The notes beneath the pieces were generated by a model. It had not been told where the DNA came from and searched no databases. It worked only from the letters and a program-made list of their open reading frames with translations. Positions 1,943-29,706 of a stretch of DNA of 64,000 nucleotides are shown here, in pieces. Within the stretch, counting starts at the first letter, position 1. Each line of letters starts with the position of its first letter. The stretch covers positions 1 through 64,000 of IMG/VR virus record IMGVR_UViG_3300008450_000013; one strand, written 5' to 3'. This stretch comes from a virus. Made by a program: the position numbers and the translations under genes.

Positions 1943-2590
1943 TCACACTGCTTTAGCAGAAATTTGTCGTTGTAGTTGTTCCCACTTAACTTCCAATTGC
2001 TTAAAAGCCTCAGCACAAGAATATTGCTTCTTGTATGTGCTTACTGTCTTCTCAGATATGCCATGTCGATGTGCTACATTCATACGAGAAACACCAGCTT
2101 GCAAGTCTGCTAGGATTGCTTTGATTTTGTCTGGGCTGTGTTGCATTTGGCGACCAACGATAGTTCCTTGTTCACGAGTTCTATTCAATCCAGCCACTAC
2201 ACGCTCCGCGATCATGTTTCTTTCTAGCTCCGCCACCGCACTAAGCATTGTCAAGAGCATCTTACCAATGGGACTACACAAGTCTACAGAATCAAGCTGC
2301 AACACTCTCAGCTTAACTCCCATAGACTTGAACAATTCTACTGTGTTAAGAATATCAATAGCACTACGCCCCATACGATCTATAGAAATTGTGACAACAC
2401 AATCTGAAGGCTTGAGAATGCTTAACATTTCCTTGAACGCAGGTCGTTGTCCAGCCTCTACTGTACCACTGACACCGACATCTGAGAACTGTTTGTCAAT
2501 CTTAAAACCAGCATCTGCAATCAGCTTATCTTGATTGTCGGTTGTTTGCCCTTTCAGCGTACTTACGCGAGTGTAAGAGTATGTAGCCAT
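1943..2590 (-). CDS. Serine recombinase (resolvase/invertase family)
   Basis: 215 residues, the usual size of a small serine recombinase. The catalytic serine is Ser10 in YTRVSTLKGQTTDNQ. The family motifs DVGVSGT, RPAFKEML, IDRMGRSAIDIL and LLTMLSAVAELERNMIAERV follow in order, then a C-terminal helix-turn-helix (VSRMNVAHRHGISEKTVSTYKKQ). Such enzymes cut and rejoin DNA at short inverted sites to invert or resolve segments, or resolve multimers. I saw no obvious invertible segment with paired sites nearby. It could act on concatemers or be a mobile passenger. Confidence 0.93.
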   Translation of the reverse strand: MATYSYTRVSTLKGQTTDNQDKLIADAGFKIDKQFSDVGVSGTVEAGQRPAFKEMLSILKPSDCVVTISIDRMGRSAIDILNTVELFKSMGVKLRVLQLDSVDLCSPIGKMLLTMLSAVAELERNMIAERVVAGLNRTREQGTIVGRQMQHSPDKIKAILADLQAGVSRMNVAHRHGISEKTVSTYKKQYSCAEAFKQLEVKWEQLQRQISAKAV

Positions 2591-2640: not shown

Positions 2641-3144
2641 TTATCTGTCAAGCTTTCTTTTCAAAATCTCAGCAGCCTTGATAAAATCTCTCAACCGCAT
2701 TCCCTGAAAAGCATCTGTCTGTACAAAATTATCTATCAGAGGCTCCATGTCACTGTCATCATCTAGAATGACAAAGTTATCAAACTCTGAGGAATACTTA
2801 TTAATCCACTGCAAGATTTCTTTACCTCGTCCGTGTTCTTCATAAGGAACCCCATTTATAGTAGGAGTCTTCCAACGATCATCTGTGTACATGTAATGTC
2901 CTAATGACGGACAAGCAGCTCCTAATATTCCTTGCAGTGCATATTGGTCGTAGAGTTTTCTCCAAGAGCTACTAATCACAATACGACAATTATATTCTTC
3001 ACAGAGACGCTTTACAAGACGACATGATACAGGGTCAAGATAGTTGTATCCTGCAATTTCTCCTTCTGCAATGCATGTCTCAGGGTTACAGATAACTCCG
3101 TCAAAATCCAAGAAGATGATGTTTGGTAGTGGCTTAGTTGTCAT
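2641..3144 (-). CDS. HAD-fold phosphatase, Swiss-Army-Knife RNA repair type
   Basis: 167 residues. The HAD motif I is FLDFDGVI with Asp13 and Asp15. A Ser/Thr motif II lies in IVISSSWRKL, and the acidic motif IV is FVILDDDSDM near residue 138. The layout (RGKEILQWI then VILDDDSD) matches the HAD_SAK family found in phage and bacterial RNA repair proteins, where the domain can act as a 5'/3' end phosphatase. A general nucleotidase role is also possible. It is a stand-alone domain here, without a ligase partner in view. Confidence 0.8.
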   Translation of the reverse strand: MTTKPLPNIIFLDFDGVICNPETCIAEGEIAGYNYLDPVSCRLVKRLCEEYNCRIVISSSWRKLYDQYALQGILGAACPSLGHYMYTDDRWKTPTINGVPYEEHGRGKEILQWINKYSSEFDNFVILDDDSDMEPLIDNFVQTDAFQGMRLRDFIKAAEILKRKLDR

Positions 3145-3313
3145 TGTTAGTCACTCCCACATCAAGAACATAGAAAGCTCCTTTATAGAAGCTAATCGTA
3201 ACAACCCAGCCTTCAGACTCTGTTGTAACTACCTCTCCAAAAGCTTTGGCTTCGTCAAACATTTCTTGTGAAGGAGGTTTGTAGTGGACAGGGAATTCTA
3301 TGAATGGTTTCAT
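3134..3313 (-). CDS. Hypothetical protein (59 aa)
   Basis: A 59-codon frame beginning at 3313 with GGAGAAGAAATT upstream. It overlaps the HAD gene start by 11 bases and shares an ATGA with the gene before it. The product looks like a small beta-rich domain (EGWVVTISFYKGAFYVLDVG). Function unknown. Confidence 0.65.
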   Translation of the reverse strand: MKPFIEFPVHYKPPSQEMFDEAKAFGEVVTTESEGWVVTISFYKGAFYVLDVGVTNNDN

Positions 3314-3558
3314 AATTTCTTCTCCTTATTCAAATAGAACAATCTACTCTCGGCAATCTCTAACGCAAAAGCCTTCTCAGCTACTTTCTTTCTATTAGCC
3401 ATAACACCCTTCCACACATTTATGTCGTGGTTAGAGCTAATTCTTTCAATGTCACATAAATCTAAATCTTCCGAGCTACGAATTAATGTCCGCAGTCCTT
3501 GCCAATATGCATTGTACAGAGCTTTTAGTTCTGTGTCTTGTTGGTCTTCTGAGATCAT
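3310..3558 (-). CDS. Hypothetical protein (82 aa)
   Basis: Acidic N-terminus and a basic helical C-terminus (NRKKVAEKAFALEIAESRL). Coupled at both ends through ATGA overlaps. No family recognised. Confidence 0.65.
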   Translation of the reverse strand: MISEDQQDTELKALYNAYWQGLRTLIRSSEDLDLCDIERISSNHDINVWKGVMANRKKVAEKAFALEIAESRLFYLNKEKKL

Positions 3559-4123: not shown

Positions 4124-4492
4124 TTAGTTAATCAAATCAACAAGACATGTTGCTTCCAACAACACTTGATAATACCCATCACTGTGAGAATTCTCCCAAG
4201 CCTTCTCAAACAGTTTCTCACGCTTAGGGTGATTTGTAATCCCAAGCTCTTCAAATAAATCTTGTTTGAATTCATTGTAGAGCTTTGCCTTCTCTTCGTT
4301 ATATTGCTTCAAGTGTTTCTTGTAAGCTTCTTTGTTTAATACAGTTTCTTTAGCTGAGTAGTTTGTCGGAGCAACAATACCCACACCAGAAGCTGCAATA
4401 CAAACACCAGCTTTGTAGTAGTACGTTGTTTCATATTCTCGTTTGTTAGGGTATTTAGTTGTTGGTGTCGCGTAGTAATCCATGTCTTTCAT
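4124..4492 (-). CDS. Hypothetical protein (122 aa), first gene of the leftward operon
   Basis: First gene after the leftward promoter at 4524-4552, with AAGGAGAAATAA before its ATG. The N-terminus is tyrosine-rich, followed by a Gly/Ala stretch (CIAASGVGIVAP) and a charged helical C-terminal half. Being first in the operon suggests early expression. No family recognised. Confidence 0.75.
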   Translation of the reverse strand: MKDMDYYATPTTKYPNKREYETTYYYKAGVCIAASGVGIVAPTNYSAKETVLNKEAYKKHLKQYNEEKAKLYNEFKQDLFEELGITNHPKREKLFEKAWENSHSDGYYQVLLEATCLVDLIN

Positions 4493-4523
4493 TTATTTCT
4501 CCTTACGTTGTTAATGTGTAGTC

Positions 4524-4552
4524 ATTGTGAAGCATTTAAAATTCCTTGTCAA
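4524..4552 (-). promoter_or_regulatory. Sigma-70-type promoter, leftward
   Basis: On the minus strand TTGACA (4552-4547), a 17-bp spacer and CACAAT (4529-4524). The start point falls about 25 bases before the first gene of the leftward operon (4492). Confidence 0.75.
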
Positions 4553-4651
4553 GCATTTTGTTGAGTTAATTCTCTAGGAATTCCAGTTATATGAAATAAG
4601 TATATCTCTAATACGTGTTATCAATTATGGTGATATCTGTTATTAAGCTAC

Positions 4652-4680
4652 TTGCAATTTCACCATCTCACTGTTATAAT
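4652..4680 (+). promoter_or_regulatory. Sigma-70-type promoter for an orphan transcript
   Basis: TTGCAA at 4652-4657, a 17-bp spacer, and a perfect TATAAT at 4675-4680. No well-supported gene follows for more than 500 bases, and a terminator lies at 5135-5168. Confidence 0.75.
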
Positions 4681-4686
4681 GTCTGT

Positions 4687-5168
4687 TACATAGAAGGGCG
4701 GTTGTAATTGTACGTTGGCTTCTATGGAATATGTGAAATCATATTACAGACATCTACCAAGGGAGTGCGCAAGGTGTCAGCTTGAAAGAAGGGTATTATT
4801 ACACATGCGAAATCAATCAAAGTTGATTAATAACGTGTCAATGATAGTATTCGGAAGTGGAAGCTTCGCACAGCATAATACAATAGTGCTGCATATAGCC
4901 ACTGAAATGAATGGAGTGTATTCTCACATTCTGCTTATAAGTGATAATCGGTGACAGGGATGTTCTGTTGTTGAGAGACTATAAGTAAACCTCTAAGCTG
5001 CTTCTTAGGAAGTGGCTAGGGAAAGTTTTGCTTAAAGTTCCTCTCAGTGACAGGGGTTATATACTACTGTAAGATGCATTCAGTTTACTTTAAGTACGTT
5101 ATATCAGAATAAATGATACAAATAAAGAGTACATAGAGCTACAGCCTTAATCGGTTAGTAGCTCTTTT
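4687..5168 (+). ncRNA. Candidate structured non-coding RNA of about 480 nt
   Basis: The stretch lies between a strong promoter (4652-4680) and a hairpin-plus-T terminator (5135-5168). Visible pairings include CATAGAAG 4689-4696 with CTTCTATG 4719-4726, AATATG 4728-4733 with CATATT 4740-4745, AATCAA 4811-4816 with TTGATT 4823-4828, and a long-range TGAGAG 4972-4977 with CTCTCA 5041-5046. GTGACAGGG occurs twice, at 4951 and 5047. A 79-codon frame (4715-4954) starts with TTG, or ATG at 4724, and has no ribosome binding site, so I favour RNA over protein. No known RNA family is recognised. Confidence 0.5.
5135..5168 (+). terminator. Intrinsic terminator
   Basis: Stem AGAGCTAC (5135-5142) with GTAGCTCT (5158-5165), a 15-base loop, then TTTT. 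It ends the orphan transcript just before the promoter of the next operon. Confidence 0.75.
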
Positions 5169-5191
5169 GCTTTATGGAGAGAAGAAATATG

Positions 5192-5220
5192 TTGACATAC
5201 AAAACTAGAGGAGCTACTAT
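5192..5220 (+). promoter_or_regulatory. Sigma-70-type promoter for the rightward early genes
   Basis: TTGACA at 5192-5197, a 17-bp spacer, TACTAT at 5215-5220. It lies 33 bases before the ATG at 5253 and right after the terminator at 5135-5168. Confidence 0.85.
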
Positions 5221-5252
5221 TCTTTCATTCGCTAACAAACAAGGAGAAACAA

Positions 5253-5513
5253 ATGTCAAGATTTGAAGATTGGATATTAGAAACATCACGTAGAGCTGGA
5301 ACACATATTGACAGGAGCACAAATGGAACATACTTAGACAATCGTGTAGCTGCTAAATATTCTGCTTGGAAAGCTTCTAAGACGCTTCCAACAGCTAAAC
5401 AAGTTCTTGACACATATCATAATAATGTTGTAGAGTATGATCTGTCCACTAACGAAGGGATATTTATGTTGGTGTCTGATGTTGTTAATCGTATGAATAA
5501 GGAGGATGTATGA
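5253..5513 (+). CDS. Hypothetical protein (86 aa), first rightward early gene
   Basis: AAGGAGAAACAA precedes the ATG, and the promoter at 5192-5220 is immediately upstream. The product is a soluble, mostly helical protein (AAKYSAWKASKTLPTAKQVL). It overlaps the next gene by four bases. No family recognised. Confidence 0.8.
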   Translation: MSRFEDWILETSRRAGTHIDRSTNGTYLDNRVAAKYSAWKASKTLPTAKQVLDTYHNNVVEYDLSTNEGIFMLVSDVVNRMNKEDV

Positions 5514-5785
5514 AACATTTCAATACTAGAACAGTACCAGAGAAAACAGAAACATACTGCAGTGGAACAACTTGTGACTTTTGCAATAACAGGCTAGATT
5601 TTGTAAAGTATGCTGACTACTCTGTAGTCGAGATGTCACATGAAGAAGGTGTTAATTATCCTGAATACAGCCATTACACTAAGGTGCACATCCACTCTTG
5701 TGTTACTTGCTTTAATTCAAAGATACTTCCAAAGCTTAAGGAAATAGCTATCAGCGAGTTCTATGTCGAGAAGTATGAAGATTGA
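5510..5785 (+). CDS. Small putative zinc-binding protein (91 aa)
   Basis: AAGGAGGATGT precedes the ATG, which overlaps the previous stop. Cysteines occur in two clusters, CSGTTCDFC near residues 18-26 and HIHSCVTC near 65-72, a spacing that could hold one zinc ion in a ribbon-like fold. Function unknown. Confidence 0.75.
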   Translation: MKHFNTRTVPEKTETYCSGTTCDFCNNRLDFVKYADYSVVEMSHEEGVNYPEYSHYTKVHIHSCVTCFNSKILPKLKEIAISEFYVEKYED

Positions 5786-7912: not shown

Positions 7913-8054
7913 GTCACATCTGGCTTGTAATATGTGTGGGAATATTCTAGAGAATATTTTTATAAATTTAAAAAATTTTAAGGCCAACTTTCGGAGTTGT
8001 GTAATCATTCTCCCTCCCCATGAATTCCTCGTTTTCAGCCTGCTTTGTCAAGGA

Positions 8055-8150
8055 TGCTTTACATAACTATATAAGCATATAACTATATAATCATATACGT
8101 ATATAACTATTTACGCATAGATGCAAATACGTATATAAGCATGTAAAGCA
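8055..8150. repeat. Tandem AT-rich 8-bp repeat array bounded by a 10-bp inverted repeat
   Basis: From 8063 the sequence reads in 8-base steps: ATAACTAT, ATAAGCAT, ATAACTAT, ATAATCAT, ATACGTAT, ATAACTAT, TTACGCAT, AGATGCAA, ATACGTAT, ATAAGCAT. The array is flanked by TGCTTTACAT (8055-8064) and its exact inverse ATGTAAAGCA (8141-8150). It lies in an 890-bp stretch without a convincing gene. It could be a DNA-unwinding element, a protein-binding array or part of an origin. Confidence 0.8.
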
Positions 8151-8312
8151 CGTTTGACTTTTCTTGTAATTGCGTTGGTAAGTGTTAGACAGCTCAAGGA
8201 CGTTATAGAATGCCGTTACAGCTTGCGAGAACGCCCCAGAATCAATTTAAAACACTTGGTAGGGTACTTACTAGCCTAAAACATTTAAACGGCTCAGAAT
8301 GGCTTAAAATGC

Positions 8313-14037: not shown

Positions 14038-15696
14038 TTAGCCGTAAAGACGCTTACGAATTTCCTCTAAACTTTGACTTACAAGCAGCTCCCCATCACG
14101 GAATACTTCCTTCATCTCTCCTTGTTGCTCTTGCTCAGGAGTTTGCTCATCATAAAGAACAAAGTTGTCTCCTTCCTTCTCTACACGCAACAAACCCTTA
14201 GCAGATTTCTTAACACCACTATCTGTCTTAGGGTCTTTGAAGATGTTACGTGGTTCTCCATTCACAACACCATATGTTGCCTTCATAGCAAAACCAAAGC
14301 TATCACGAGTTTGATATTGATATGTGTATGAACCAATACCGAATACAATATTACCAGAGGCAAAGCCCTTAGCTTCCAGACGCTTCATAATCTCGTTAGC
14401 TCGCTCCAATGTAATAGAGTCTCCATAGATTAGCCCTACATGACTATCTAACATCTTATAACTTTTATCTGTTGTAGTTCCTCCGAATATATTCCATAAA
14501 CATTCTACTGAGCCTTTAACAACATGAGCTGGAACTTCTTCTAAGAGGTCTGCCCTATGATTCCAAGTCTCTCCTTCGTAACCATAATCACAGTCAATGT
14601 CAAACTTGAAATAACGATCATCAACTTTAATAACATCATACTCGTCCTGAATATCGTAATAATTGCTGCTGTTTACAGAGACATTGAATTCCTCAAGAGC
14701 TATGTAACGCAGCCCACAAATAATATCCACAGGATTGCCACTATCAGGACGGAACACTACTTTACTTAAGCCAAGAGCATTAGGCTGACGTGACATAATG
14801 ACATCTTTGAGTTGCTTAGAGTAGTCAGTAATCACTTGCCAGTAGTCCCAACTGTCACTTACAACAGAGACGACACCTATTGGGAATGTGTCTTGAATCA
14901 ATCGACGGAATGTTTCAATTTCATTATCAGCTCCTGATAAGCACATAACAGAGTGTTCAGATGCTGGTACACTTCCACCAACAAATGTCTCTTTACCACG
15001 ATAGTAGTCTTCCACATAGTCCATAGCTGGAATTGTATCTGTACCTAAGAATGATAACAAATGACCTGCTCCAGAAGCTGCTGCATCATGCACACCAGAC
15101 AGCCCTCGGAAAGAGAAGTCGTGCCCTTGCCACAATACAAACTCCTTAGAGCTGCCTGTCTTGTCAGCATAGCTATCTAGCAACTTACGATATTGGTGAG
15201 CTGTAGTTGCTGTTGTACTAGCTTTCCATAATTCTGCAGACATAACGGATTCAATGTAATTAGGAAGCCAGAAGAACTCATCAATTGTGTTTGTCACTGT
15301 CAGAACAGGAACCTTAATATCTACTAAGCTACCTTCTGGCAGAGCTTTAATACTTAATGGCAGGTATCCTAAATTATGTAAAGCTTCAATATGGCTTGTA
15401 TCTGGATTAGCAATACATAAGCCATTGGATACACGGCTGCGATATTCTTCCACCACTTTCTCTTTTGGCTGTTGGAAGAAGTTATTATTCCATGTATCTA
15501 TTAAGAATGACTTGATGAATCCTTGTAGCCCAAAGAACACAATCTTGTTATTAAACACTGCTGGAAGCTTAGAAGCATGTGTTGAGCTACGAGGTGTAAA
15601 GTTACTGTAAATCTTTGTTGTGCCTTTCTCGTACATATCTTTATGACCAATCTTGTAGTAGTCACAGGCTGTATGAGGTTTGATATTAAATGTCAT
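14038..15696 (-). CDS. nadV: Nicotinamide phosphoribosyltransferase (NAMPT/NadV)
   Basis: 552 residues. Makes nicotinamide mononucleotide from nicotinamide and PRPP, the first step of NAD salvage. The active-site blocks align with human NAMPT almost residue for residue: HDFSFRG (Arg197, human Arg196), FLGTD (Asp220, human Asp219), VPASEHSVM with the phosphorylated His248 (human His247), and VVFRPDSGNP (Arg316 region). It is slightly longer than the usual 465-495 residues. AAAGGAGAAACCA precedes the ATG. Its first 11 bases overlap the end of the PRPP synthetase gene, so the substrate maker and user are made together. Phage NAMPT enzymes are known to refill NAD during host defence or metabolic stress. 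Confidence 0.95.
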   Translation of the reverse strand: MTFNIKPHTACDYYKIGHKDMYEKGTTKIYSNFTPRSSTHASKLPAVFNNKIVFFGLQGFIKSFLIDTWNNNFFQQPKEKVVEEYRSRVSNGLCIANPDTSHIEALHNLGYLPLSIKALPEGSLVDIKVPVLTVTNTIDEFFWLPNYIESVMSAELWKASTTATTAHQYRKLLDSYADKTGSSKEFVLWQGHDFSFRGLSGVHDAAASGAGHLLSFLGTDTIPAMDYVEDYYRGKETFVGGSVPASEHSVMCLSGADNEIETFRRLIQDTFPIGVVSVVSDSWDYWQVITDYSKQLKDVIMSRQPNALGLSKVVFRPDSGNPVDIICGLRYIALEEFNVSVNSSNYYDIQDEYDVIKVDDRYFKFDIDCDYGYEGETWNHRADLLEEVPAHVVKGSVECLWNIFGGTTTDKSYKMLDSHVGLIYGDSITLERANEIMKRLEAKGFASGNIVFGIGSYTYQYQTRDSFGFAMKATYGVVNGEPRNIFKDPKTDSGVKKSAKGLLRVEKEGDNFVLYDEQTPEQEQQGEMKEVFRDGELLVSQSLEEIRKRLYG

Positions 15697-16501
15697 TGGT
15701 TTCTCCTTTTGGTAAATTTAAGATGATTGGGTTTGGTGTTCCCATCAGATTGTAAGTGTATATGCCATCAATAAGATTGTCAAACACTTTGTAACCTTTT
15801 GAGAATATTCCATGTGTTACATACAAATAGATTTTACCTGTTGTATGTGGACGTAATGCTTTAGCTAATTCTGTGAACGTCCATCCTCCTTCACAAATGT
15901 CGTCCACTATGATGAAGTCTTGATTACCTATATGACCTCCATTAAACTGTGTAGATATGATGTTACCTGTCATACAATCTCGTTCTTTAGTTGCTACCTC
16001 TACTCGACAATTCACAAGCTTGCCAAGAGAAGCCACTTTCTTCATAGCACCTGCATCTGGAGATACCAAAACACTATTAGCAAACACTTCTGTTGGTATA
16101 GTTGCTTTAGCGCACTTAGATAAATCATTATGTATCAGATTGTTGAACAGTGCTAATGGCACATCACTATGAGCATCACACACCACCACTGTGTTAAAGT
16201 TTAAGCTGTTAATAAAGTCAGCTACCACTTTAATTGATAGGCTTTCCCCTTCATTACATACCCTGTCCTGTCGTGCGTATGGAATGTAAGGCATTTCTAA
16301 GTGGATATCTGGTTTATATTCAGCCCTACGAATAGCATCTACAGCTAAAGCTAAGTTAAATAAATCTTCATTGCTTTCCCAATCCAACACTAATGTGAAT
16401 ACTCCACTAAGAACCTCATAGTTTGGTGTATAAACAACTTTACTCTCTCCTGCAGGAAACTTAGTGATTTCTAAGTTGTGTCCTTTTAATTTAACGCTCA
16501 T
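15686..16501 (-). CDS. prs: Ribose-phosphate pyrophosphokinase (PRPP synthetase)
   Basis: 271 residues, shorter than the usual 310-320 but with all the key parts: FPAGES near the N-terminus, the catalytic flexible region PYIPYARQDR (71-80), CDAHSD (108-113), VSPDAGA (146-152), and the PRPP-binding loop FIIVDDICEGGWTF (196-209). It makes PRPP from ribose 5-phosphate and ATP. AAGGAGGAGTT precedes the ATG. The neighbour nadV uses PRPP, a pairing also known in other large phages such as vibriophage KVP40. Confidence 0.95.
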   Translation of the reverse strand: MSVKLKGHNLEITKFPAGESKVVYTPNYEVLSGVFTLVLDWESNEDLFNLALAVDAIRRAEYKPDIHLEMPYIPYARQDRVCNEGESLSIKVVADFINSLNFNTVVVCDAHSDVPLALFNNLIHNDLSKCAKATIPTEVFANSVLVSPDAGAMKKVASLGKLVNCRVEVATKERDCMTGNIISTQFNGGHIGNQDFIIVDDICEGGWTFTELAKALRPHTTGKIYLYVTHGIFSKGYKVFDNLIDGIYTYNLMGTPNPIILNLPKGETNDI

Positions 16502-18107: not shown

Positions 18108-18311
18108 TCAGTATCCTTTCTTAATACAATCAATGAGCATCCGGCTAATGTCATTCTGATTCTTAATAAATTCATTCATGTTGTTGGAAAATGTTAGTGT
18201 GCTATCTTGTAACTCATGTAGCTGACGCTTCAATGTAGTAATCTCTTTTCCTTGTATGTGCAATAGAATCATAATAGCTATTATGCAAATTCCTATGAGT
18301 ATTTCTGTCAT
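18108..18311 (-). CDS. Membrane-anchored coiled-coil protein B
   Basis: 67 residues. Shares the start MTEI, a membrane segment (LIGICIIAIMILLHIQG), and the motif NMNEFIKNQNDISRMLI with its neighbour (NMTKFVQAQNDANEAVINM). AAGGAGAGAAAGA precedes the ATG, which overlaps the methyltransferase stop. Likely arose by duplication. Confidence 0.7.
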   Translation of the reverse strand: MTEILIGICIIAIMILLHIQGKEITTLKRQLHELQDSTLTFSNNMNEFIKNQNDISRMLIDCIKKGY

Positions 18312-19090
18312 TCTTTCTCTCCTTGTTTCACATTATTTAAAATACGCTCTTTAGCTATGTTGAAGTAGGTTTCATCCATCTCAATACCTATAAACTTACG
18401 TCCTAAATTGGAACAAGCCACTCCTGTAGTGCCGCTGCCCATTGTGAAGTCTAACACTGTATCACCTTCATTACTATAAGTCTTAATGAGGTATTCCATT
18501 AGAGCAACAGGCTTCTGTGTTGGATGTACTTGGCTGACATTATGGATGTTATCAAATTTCAATAGCTCTGTTGGATAGTTAGTCCACTCTTGTACATACT
18601 CATTGTTACTGTTGCTAGGTCTTGTATAAGAGTTTTCTTTACCTAAGTCGCCACGAATTGACACCTTCTTGCCTTCCTTACACTTTATCAAACCTTGTGG
18701 GTTATATAACATATTGTTCTTATTGCCATTAGAAGTTTTACCATTTGAAAACACACAAACTTCTTCGATAACTTTAAGAGGCTTAAGTTTTGCATTAACA
18801 AAACCACCTTTCCTATTCTTTTCCCAGAACCAATTGTATTTGTACATTTCAAAATTACTGGGAATCAACTTTGAAGTAAATGGCTGTGCAGCAAACAAGC
18901 AGATTGCTCTATTAGGTCTTATAATTCTCCTGAGTTGCTCCCACATTAAGTCTAAAGGAATGATACTGTCCCACTTACAAGCTGTCGTCCCGTAGGGAGG
19001 GTCTGTTAATATTAAATCAACACTCCCATCAGGAATTTCTTTCATTCGCTCTAAGCAATCCCCTAACATAAGCCAATTGTTGTCAATCAT
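18308..19090 (-). CDS. DNA methyltransferase (N6-adenine/N4-cytosine class)
   Basis: 260 residues in the beta-type order: catalytic motif IV TDPPYG (DPPY at 30-33) near the N-terminus, target-recognition part in the middle, HPTQKPVALMEYLIKTYS, then the S-adenosylmethionine motif I LDFTMGSGTTGVA near the C-terminus. It transfers a methyl group to an exocyclic amino group of adenine or cytosine. No restriction enzyme gene is nearby, so it is probably an orphan enzyme that protects phage DNA. It is a paralog of the enzyme at 22606-23337. Confidence 0.93.
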   Translation of the reverse strand: MIDNNWLMLGDCLERMKEIPDGSVDLILTDPPYGTTACKWDSIIPLDLMWEQLRRIIRPNRAICLFAAQPFTSKLIPSNFEMYKYNWFWEKNRKGGFVNAKLKPLKVIEEVCVFSNGKTSNGNKNNMLYNPQGLIKCKEGKKVSIRGDLGKENSYTRPSNSNNEYVQEWTNYPTELLKFDNIHNVSQVHPTQKPVALMEYLIKTYSNEGDTVLDFTMGSGTTGVACSNLGRKFIGIEMDETYFNIAKERILNNVKQGEKE

Positions 19091-22605: not shown

Positions 22606-23337
22606 TTAAGCCTTCCAAATCCTCTCTTGAGCAATCTTGAAGTAAGCCTCATCAAGCTCAATTCCTATACCATTCCTGCCAGTATTTTTACAAGCTAGTA
22701 AGGTTGTACCACTCCCGCAAGTGAAGTCCAACACTGTATCTCCTTCATTACTGTAAGTCTTGATTAGGTATTCCATAAGCGCAACAGGCTTTTGTGTTGG
22801 ATGTAAGTTACTGGTAAGGATATCTCTTTTGAATCGTAATACTTGTGTAGGATATCTCAAACCATTGTCTTTGTACTCGAAAACCTTTTTCTCTGAAGAA
22901 TCAGACAATCCACCTATTTTCCCATTCTTGACTTTATTTGTTCTTGGAATACCATCATATACTACCATTTGCGGATTATATACACATTGTTTGTCATAGA
23001 ATACAGAAATTGTCTCCACGGTTTTTCCCGCCCGTTTCTTAACTTGATGTATGTTTGTAAGACGTTCTTTCTCCCATATCCAGTCGTACTTATACAACTT
23101 TAAGTTACTTGTGCGCAGTATGCTAGAGAACGGTTCTTGCCCAAACAACACAATAGCTCCGTTAGGTTTGATAACACGTTTCAATTGCTCCCACATAGGT
23201 TCTAATGGAATTATAGAATCCCAGTGGCACTGAGTCGTCCCAAAAGGAGGGTCTGTAAGCACTAAATCAATGCTTCCGTCAGGAATACCCTTCATTACTT
23301 CTAAACAATCCCCATTATATAATTCTATTTTACTCAT
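22606..23337 (-). CDS. DNA methyltransferase (N6-adenine/N4-cytosine class), second paralog
   Basis: 243 residues with the same order as the enzyme at 18308-19090: DPPFG (29-33) in place of DPPYG, SIIPLEPMWEQLKRVIKPNG, HPTQKPVALMEYLIKTYS, then LDFTCGSGTTLLA. Long identical stretches show recent common descent, while the middle target-recognition regions differ, so the two probably methylate different sequences. It ends at a terminator. Its stop is reached just before the promoter of the next operon. Confidence 0.92.
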   Translation of the reverse strand: MSKIELYNGDCLEVMKGIPDGSIDLVLTDPPFGTTQCHWDSIIPLEPMWEQLKRVIKPNGAIVLFGQEPFSSILRTSNLKLYKYDWIWEKERLTNIHQVKKRAGKTVETISVFYDKQCVYNPQMVVYDGIPRTNKVKNGKIGGLSDSSEKKVFEYKDNGLRYPTQVLRFKRDILTSNLHPTQKPVALMEYLIKTYSNEGDTVLDFTCGSGTTLLACKNTGRNGIGIELDEAYFKIAQERIWKA

Positions 23338-27951: not shown

Positions 27952-29706
27952 ATGGTTAAAAAAGATCGAGTAAAGTTTCAACCTTGCTCAGAGAAACAAA
28001 AGCTAATTTTGATGGATAACACCACGGACGTTATCCTGATAGGCGGTGGTGAACTTGCGCCTCCGCATTAAAAACAACTTCTTAAACGGTGAAACTCTCT
28101 AGTAGACAATACCGTGCCAAGCCCCTGAAGGGTGCAGTGCGTAACGACCAATCCGAAAGGATGTAGGGCTAAGTAGCTCGAAACAGAAGTCCTCGAAAGA
28201 GTGAAGATATGGTCTGGTCTTTATGGTGACATAAAGCAGCTTAAAAAGCGGAAGTAGATTAACGAACTACTTTGAACACAAACAGCAGGAGGAGGCAAAT
28301 CGAGGATTTGCCTTACAAAGAATTTAGATGGTATTAAAGATGGAAAGTTCCGTTGCGTTATTCTGAGACGTTTTGAGCCAGAGCTTAAAAAACAAGGTGG
28401 CTTGATTGATGAATCCAAGAATATCTACCCACACTTTACAAAAATACCTTACAAAAGTCAACAAAAATTATGGGAATTTCCATCTGGAGCCACAATCGGG
28501 TTTTCAGCAATATCTTGTGACGATGATTTAGGGAGCTGGCAGGGTAGCCAACTAACGAGGGCTTTGATAGACGAGGCGGCTGATAAGTGGACTGAAAAAC
28601 AAGTTTTGTTCTTACAATCTCGTTTGCGTACAGTTGGCTCTGATATTCACCCGCAACTGATTATGTCTTGCAACCCAGACCCTAACAGTTTCTTATTTGA
28701 GTGGGTTAAGTTCTGTCTTGATGAAGACACAGGAGTACCAAAAGAAGGTACTGAGTATCTTATCAGATGGTTCTGTGTAGAAGATAACAAAGCTAAATGG
28801 GCTGATAGTCCAGAAGAGTGCTATGAATTATATGGTGCTCCCAAGAATCTAATTTATGCTCATGGAATGACAGAAGAACAGATGAACGCATTCTCTAAAG
28901 AAGAGAAGATGCGGTTGTTCATGCCTAAGTCATTCAGGTTCATTCCAACTGGTGTTTTTGACAACCCATATCTACTCCCACCAAAGAATACAAGTTACTT
29001 AGCATCTCTCCTTTCCCAACCTTATGTAAATCAGTTAAAATTTTTACATGGAAGTTGGACAGCACGAGAACTTGGGAGTTCTTACTTCGACAGAAAGTGG
29101 GTTCAAATCGTTGACCAACCTCCCGTAAATGCAACAGCTAGGATACGTTCTTGGGACTTCGCTTCAGAAGAAAAGACAAAAACTAACAACCCCGATTGGA
29201 CAGCAGGTGTAAAAATGTCTAGGGATAGGTACGGTATTTACTATATCGAGGATGTTGTCAGAGTGCAGATGCGGATTGACGGTGTTTTAAAAACCGTCAT
29301 TGAGACTGCTAAAGCTGACGGTGTAGGCGAATGTGAAGTCTGCATTCCAGTTGACCCTGCAGCAGCGGGTAAGAGTAGTGCTCACTTCTTTCAGAAGGTA
29401 TTAGCAGAAAATGGCATTCCTTGTAAGAAAGCTCAGTCCTCTGGACACAGTAGCAAGCTCACAAGATTTAAACCGTTTTGTGCATTAGCTGAGAGTGGTA
29501 GTGTTCGTGTGGTTCGAGGGGATTGGAACGATGCATTTTTTGCAGAGCTTGAAGCATTCTCTGGTGACAAAGCAATTGAGAGAACTCAGAAGAACGACCA
29601 AGTTGATGCTTGCTCAGATAGTTTTAACAATTTAGCAAGACAATTACAGCTACCTGTATTCTCAGTACCGTCCCTAACAAAAGCCTCTCCTGTCCCAACA
29701 ATATAG
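27952..29706 (+). CDS. terL: Terminase large subunit, gene interrupted by a group I intron
   Basis: Exon 1 is 27952-28050 (33 codons, AAAGGAGTATT before the ATG) and exon 2 is 28285-29706. The splice gives a protein of 506 residues. The join falls inside Walker A: LIGGG from exon 1 and AGGGKSR from exon 2. Further motifs are the Walker B-like RALIDEAADKW, and the nuclease acidic residues in RSWDFASE, CIPVDPAAAG and DQVDACSDSF. The protein pumps DNA into the head and cuts the concatemer. Without splicing, exon 1 would stop at 28069. Confidence 0.9.
28051..28284 (+). ncRNA. Group I intron in terL (no internal ORF)
   Basis: A 234-nt insert. Exon end GCGGTGGT pairs with GCCTCCGC (28059-28066), giving P1 with the typical U-G wobble at the splice point (T28050 with G28059). 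The core holds AATACCGTGCCAAGCCC followed by GAAGGGTGCAG, then ACGACC and GATATGGTCTGG as the two P7 strands, all typical of phage group I introns. The exact boundary can shift by one base (28051-28284 or 28052-28285) with the same spliced RNA; the second ends in the usual G. It would need self-splicing for TerL to be made. Confidence 0.85.

Follow-up and report, generated by a model that had tools for sequence, protein, structure and literature searches.

We found that positions 4652-5169 of the window, the whole 64,000-nucleotide (64-kb) stretch of viral DNA analyzed here, hold a self-contained RNA gene with a promoter, a body of about 485 nt and a terminator hairpin, a layout that the sequence analysis confirms and from which transcription is inferred. 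Since the related phage L018 keeps the fold though about half of the letters differ, we consider this predicted RNA to be real; it is also new to the catalogues, and its function is inferred, not shown. Computationally, we could establish a conserved promoter, fold and terminator, and we detected no protein-coding signal.

The window comes from a tailed-phage virus record of 86,810 bp (86.8 kb), whose capsid, terminase and portal match tailed-phage families in Pfam and PHROG searches. Its capsid protein shares 63% identity with the one of Pseudomonas phage vB_PsaM_M1, and the terminase, an ordinary large terminase, shows a distant relationship (41% identity) to terminases of phages such as PAK_P2. 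Genome contigs searched with the early-promoter motif and the major capsid protein gave no match, so that the host of the phage could not be named. The RNA gene sits between leftward genes (the first at 4124-4492, minus strand) and a rightward early operon (first gene 5253-5513), which bears out its assignment, in an earlier note on this DNA, to a divergent control region ahead of the early operon.

By searching viral contigs with a flanking protein and the motif at the start of the early operon, we obtained three relatives, L002, L003 and L018. L018 carries a syntenic homologue (2867-3355) in the equivalent position: ahead of the promoter, its sequence is 80-84% identical to that of the window, and the terminator 86-87%, while the RNA body is only about 49% identical. 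In the L002 unit (5566-5261, minus strand), the architecture of the promoter and the final 100 nt with the terminator are shared with the window, and the body is shorter and different; this unit keeps the promoter, 3' domain and terminator, and the 5' domain is absent. Finally, L003 retains the early promoter and lacks the RNA unit, indicating that the RNA is a separable module. In the phage collection, no DNA similar to the window unit was found, the L018 unit gave only chance matches of 25-40 nt, and the L002 unit a single weak match, inside an annotated hypothetical gene. We also noted that early proteins of the L002 record (G001) are up to about 90% identical to those of the window and the major capsid proteins only 26%; as judged from these identities, early and structural modules are strongly mosaic between the two.

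A scan of the window for promoters of such quality returned six sites where 3.5 are expected by chance, and is therefore not convincing alone. However, the -10 element, the 17-nt spacer and the TG that makes this putative sigma-70-type promoter an extended -10 one are retained in L018 and L002, with TTGCAA or TTGTAT as -35, a conservation that is not chance; the TTGCAA-17-TATAAT promoter of the earlier note is thus present. The hairpin-T terminator that it described is also there and conserved in three phages, L002 having one double-sided and two one-sided changes. This terminator, which has a weak inner stem extension, was missed by a simple terminator scan because of its long loop. Its tail (TTTTGCTTT) is short, so that some read-through into the early operon is possible. 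The terminator and a separate early promoter stand between the RNA and the first early gene, and the extended motif of that early promoter was found in the window, L002, L003 and L018. With signals conserved in three phages, a discrete transcript with its own promoter and terminator is inferred, without transcript data.

Consistent with the many local pairings noticed before over about 480 bases, the RNA body is predicted to fold better than shuffled sequences in the window (z -3.25), L018 (z -3.14) and L002 (z -3.30). Given that the opposite strand of the window unit reached z -2.88, single-sequence folding is suggestive, not strand-specific and not decisive alone; the comparison with L018 is decisive. 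For that, the window and L018 were aligned with MAFFT on sequence only, a consensus was computed with RNAalifold, and 300 column shuffles were each refolded. The 5' core (P3 to just after P6) gave a consensus of -29.7 kcal/mol against -6.4 +/- 2.6 for the shuffles (z -9.05, SCI 0.90), and the strand comparison gave z -8.5 in sense and -2.5 in antisense. The 3' domain without terminator reached z -8.7 (antisense -6.1) and the terminator z -6.3. As the control, the upstream flank at 80% identity, yielded a consensus-folding z of only -0.26, we assign the signal to the transcribed body and, within the core, mainly to the sense strand.

All 55 pairs of the named structure (P3-P8, PK1 and the terminator) form in both the window and L018, 14 of them with double-sided changes, compared with 0-2 when the pairing partners are slid by 1-3 columns. 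As the two aligned sequences themselves supplied the consensus behind this structure, the shuffles with refolding provide a fairer test, and their outcome is in agreement. For the covariation there are only two full-length sequences, the window and L018, the one full-length homologue found, and the third (L002) helps at the 3' end only. The covariation check on homologous intergenic regions that had been suggested thus supports the fold, and the criterion for a large structured phage noncoding RNA, conserved secondary structure backed by covariation, is met by this predicted structure. When a covariance model built on the 5' core was run on seven records, only the window and L018 matched.

Table. 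Predicted features of the RNA gene and its surroundings (window positions).
Feature	Position	Strand	Details
Divergent promoter-like site	4524-4552	-	TTGACA-17-CACAAT, for leftward genes; promoter scan; context
Promoter	4652-4680	+	-35 TTGCAA 4652-4657, 17-nt spacer, TG and -10 TATAAT 4675-4680; conserved in L018 and L002
Predicted RNA	4687-5172	+	about 485 nt; promoter and terminator place the start near 4687 and the end at about 5169-5172 (inferred)
P1 hairpin	4689-4726	+	CATAGAAG 4689-4696 / CTTCTATG 4719-4726; by eye, outside the tested alignment
Putative pseudoknot PK2	4700-4900	+	4700-4706 (P1 loop) with 4894-4900; tentative, by eye
P3	4749-4778	+	4749-4755/4772-4778; 3 of 7 pairs with double-sided changes in L018
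Pseudoknot PK1	4766-4870	+	4766-4769 (P3 loop) with 4867-4870; one double-sided change
P4	4779-4865	+	4779-4783/4861-4865; one double-sided change; encloses P5
P5	4795-4848	+	4795-4801/4842-4848 and 4803-4807/4834-4838; 3 double-sided changes
P6	4871-4891	+	4871-4876/4886-4891; one double-sided change
P7	4909-4931	+	4909-4912/4928-4931 and 4916-4918/4925-4927; 3 double-sided changes
P8, closing helix of 3' domain	4932-5096	+	4932-4937/5091-5096; 2 double-sided changes in L018
3'-domain interior	4938-5090	+	long hairpin arm in window; branching differs in L018
Terminator	5135-5169	+	8-bp stem 5135-5142/5158-5165, then TTTT
Separate early promoter	5192-5220	+	TTGACA-17-TACTAT; 3' of terminator; context, outside RNA

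The predicted RNA includes one pseudoknot (PK1), and a second (PK2) is plausible. P1, whose equivalent in L018 is ACAAGA/TCTTGT, and PK2, with 7 bp in the window and 6 bp in L018, can tentatively form in both phages, but lie outside the reliably aligned part. With an 18-nt insertion in the window, the P5 loop is longer there and forms an additional hairpin. L002 can form a 5-bp equivalent of P8 (GCTTG/CAAGT) right where its predicted transcript begins, suggesting that the L002 RNA may consist of the 3' domain alone. By eye, the L002 RNA body (5261-5566, minus strand) also holds two imperfect direct copies of about 48 nt (GGGGCTTRTGAGTAG...AGGTTGATAG).

Could the unit encode a small protein instead, either from the 79-aa frame at 4715-4954 or from smaller ones? 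A weak tblastn match links part of this 79-codon frame with L018 (E 1e-4, search space 1.5 kb), but it is accounted for by the core being similar at the DNA level. Substitutions relative to L018 fall without bias on the three codon positions (27/70, 24/70 and 26/68), so that there is no codon periodicity and, on this basis, no protein-coding signal in the unit, and the corresponding L018 frame is only 33 codons long. Neither was there a ribosome-binding site in front of the TTG start, in agreement with the earlier note, which had seen no such site and no convincing gene. A conserved protein family for the frame ending at 4954, which would have refuted its reading, did not emerge, with no Pfam match and a PHROG match only at chance level (E 0.039). 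We find a coding function scarcely credible.

The repeated GTGACAGGG reported in the unit does occur twice, but a repeated 9-mer is found in 43% of dinucleotide shuffles and the repeat is not conserved in L018, so that its presence holds and it carries no weight beyond chance. In the window, the strand at 4965-4977 could in principle pair with either copy. However, long-range pairing of the second copy prevails there, and L018 is predicted to have no such competition; hence we claim no conserved conformational switch. A reading of the RNA as a CsrA sponge, given several GGA motifs, was also set aside, GGA not being enriched, by a rough hand estimate only.

With moderate confidence, we favor the reading of the unit as a free-standing noncoding RNA gene of a new family of large pseudoknotted phage RNAs, expressed early and acting in trans, both transcription and function being inferred. 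It could also be a cis-acting leader or antitermination element, with read-through of the terminator, the RNA or an RNA-bound protein controlling the early operon. This is what a position on the same strand directly upstream of that operon would allow, with the conserved terminator as a regulated attenuator, yet past the terminator there is a near-consensus promoter that belongs to the early operon itself, and L003, without the RNA, has both the early promoter and the early operon, two observations that argue against an obligatory cis role. Moreover, to our knowledge, antitermination RNAs are far smaller than the window RNA body. We therefore regard a cis role as unlikely, without putting it aside.

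An early-type promoter and position, the lack of tRNA genes found in the window, an ordinary large terminase and the absence of the RNA from L003 all speak against a structural or packaged RNA, forming a particle itself or carried as a virion passenger, as speculated for cage-forming RNAs or in the manner of the phi29 packaging RNA; although size and pseudoknots resemble those of the self-assembling GOLLD and ROOL (PMC12286853), such a role seems improbable. A replication RNA, that is a primer-type transcript (like RNAII of ColE1) or an origin part in the divergent region, strikes us as similarly improbable. It would suit a control region between divergent gene blocks, a long transcript predicted to be highly structured with its own promoter, and the change of GC skew sign near 5 kb, but the skew changes track gene orientation with no origin signal beyond it, the iteron-like array at 8060-8147 is a more convincing candidate for the origin, and L003 lacks the RNA.

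Coming back to a trans-acting early RNA, a more far-reaching picture is offered only tentatively, and we doubt it more than we trust it: a two-domain, doubly pseudoknotted immediate-early RNA of about 485 nt, made first by the host polymerase and acting on host machinery or defence, with a fast-evolving body exchanged between promoter and terminator "sockets". In the reading that we favor, host sigma-70 RNA polymerase would transcribe the gene once phage DNA enters, and the RNA would fold into two domains, the 5' one (P1-P7) pseudoknotted and the 3' one closed by P8, with the terminator after it. Early in infection, the RNA would then bind a macromolecule of the host or the phage, or its own copies, so acting in trans, and may help host takeover or counter-defence. 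Promoter and terminator would form the socket, in which the body may change sequence quickly or lose its 5' domain, with the fold kept. It is from the position alone that we infer trans action and any anti-host role, with neither a partner nor a target identified; the regulatory or anti-host task evoked before remains plausible, with no data on function. If the partner or host differs from phage to phage, a fast-changing body in conserved flanks would fit, but drift with the structure constrained looks identical.

Other features of the window phage were recorded along the way. An AT-rich iteron-like array (8047-8158; 8/16-nt period over 8060-8147), bounded by a 32-nt inverted repeat and lying within about 890 nt that hold few plausible genes, is a candidate for an origin of replication or a regulatory site. 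A nicotinamide/nicotinate phosphoribosyltransferase gene and, next to it, a ribose-phosphate pyrophosphokinase gene (14038-16501, minus strand; Pfam) make up an NAD+ salvage pair, as carried by some phages against NAD-depleting defences. There are two N6/N4 DNA methylase genes (18308-19090 and 22606-23337, both minus strand), part of the latter sharing 82% DNA identity with the methylase of a Vibrio phage. Serine recombinases of the window (1943-2590, minus strand), L018 (576-1226, minus strand) and L003 (7794-8495, plus strand) have a nearly identical C-terminal part (SP[DN]KIKAILADLQAGVSRMNVAHRH...) and clearly different N-terminal catalytic halves, a sequence pattern as if related phages had exchanged domains.

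In line with the earlier view that the unit matches no RNA family, Rfam cmscan gave no match to it with the whole window at the gathering threshold, nor in 4500-5300 up to E 5, and nothing above chance in the units of the relatives. Together with the covariation and the lack of codon periodicity, this supports the proposal of a large structured phage RNA. Group I introns (RF00028) were not matched in 4500-5300 up to E 5, whereas the same type of search does detect one elsewhere in the window. This compact, ORF-less intron (28041-28236, plus strand; Intron_gpI, 44.9 bits, E 4e-10, gathering score 50) has terminase N-terminal residues upstream in the same frame and appears to interrupt the large terminase gene near the Walker A motif. 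ARAGORN found no tRNA gene in the 64-kb window; the remaining 22.8 kb of the record were outside the tRNA search, the sole queries there being the DNA of the RNA unit and its model.

The lytic Pseudomonas phage PAK_P3 has two noncoding RNAs, sRNA1 and sRNA2, which are intergenic, one of them between tRNAs (PMC4933390). The terminase of the window phage is distantly related to those of PAK_P2-like phages, but these sRNAs are about 100 nt and late, in contrast to about 485 nt and an early-type promoter here. The closest cultured relative, vB_PsaM_M1 (OP714164.2), has the same control-region layout, with a noncoding unit (~3139-3475) before the early operon and between divergent genes: a promoter (TTGACA-17-TAAGAT), about 300 nt, a terminator-like hairpin, then another promoter. 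Its excess of structure (z -1.6 to -2.0 depending on ends) is weaker than in the window, and with neither sequence similarity to the window RNA nor a covariance-model match, homology is unsupported and the unit is an analogue at most. A hypothetical CDS annotated in this phage (L028, 3441-3614) overlaps the apparent RNA terminator and the following promoter and is probably not a gene. The window RNA shows that annotated "intergenic" phage control regions can hide conserved RNA genes.

Large structured phage RNAs are few. GOLLD and ROOL, from phages and prophages, assemble into cages and are of unknown function; in GOLLD, the 3' region is conserved and the 5' region less so, and ROOL, often near tRNA islands, is pseudoknotted, the solved one having 659 nt (PMC12286853). 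The window RNA is like GOLLD in its large, elaborate predicted fold and in the conserved 3' and less conserved 5' part among the window, L018 and L002, and like ROOL in being a large pseudoknotted phage RNA of unknown function. However, GOLLD often exceeds 800 nt and lies next to tRNA islands, where ROOL is often found too, whereas the window RNA occupies an early control region, with no tRNA genes in the window. As neither covariance model matched in the Rfam searches (for GOLLD, the whole window at the gathering threshold and 4500-5300 up to E 5; for ROOL, the window and the unit) and the genome location differs, we do not file the RNA as a member of either family; it is comparable to them in kind, not in sequence. 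With the functions of GOLLD and ROOL still poorly understood, a separable RNA with defined ends in an early control region offers a simple entry to the function of such RNAs.
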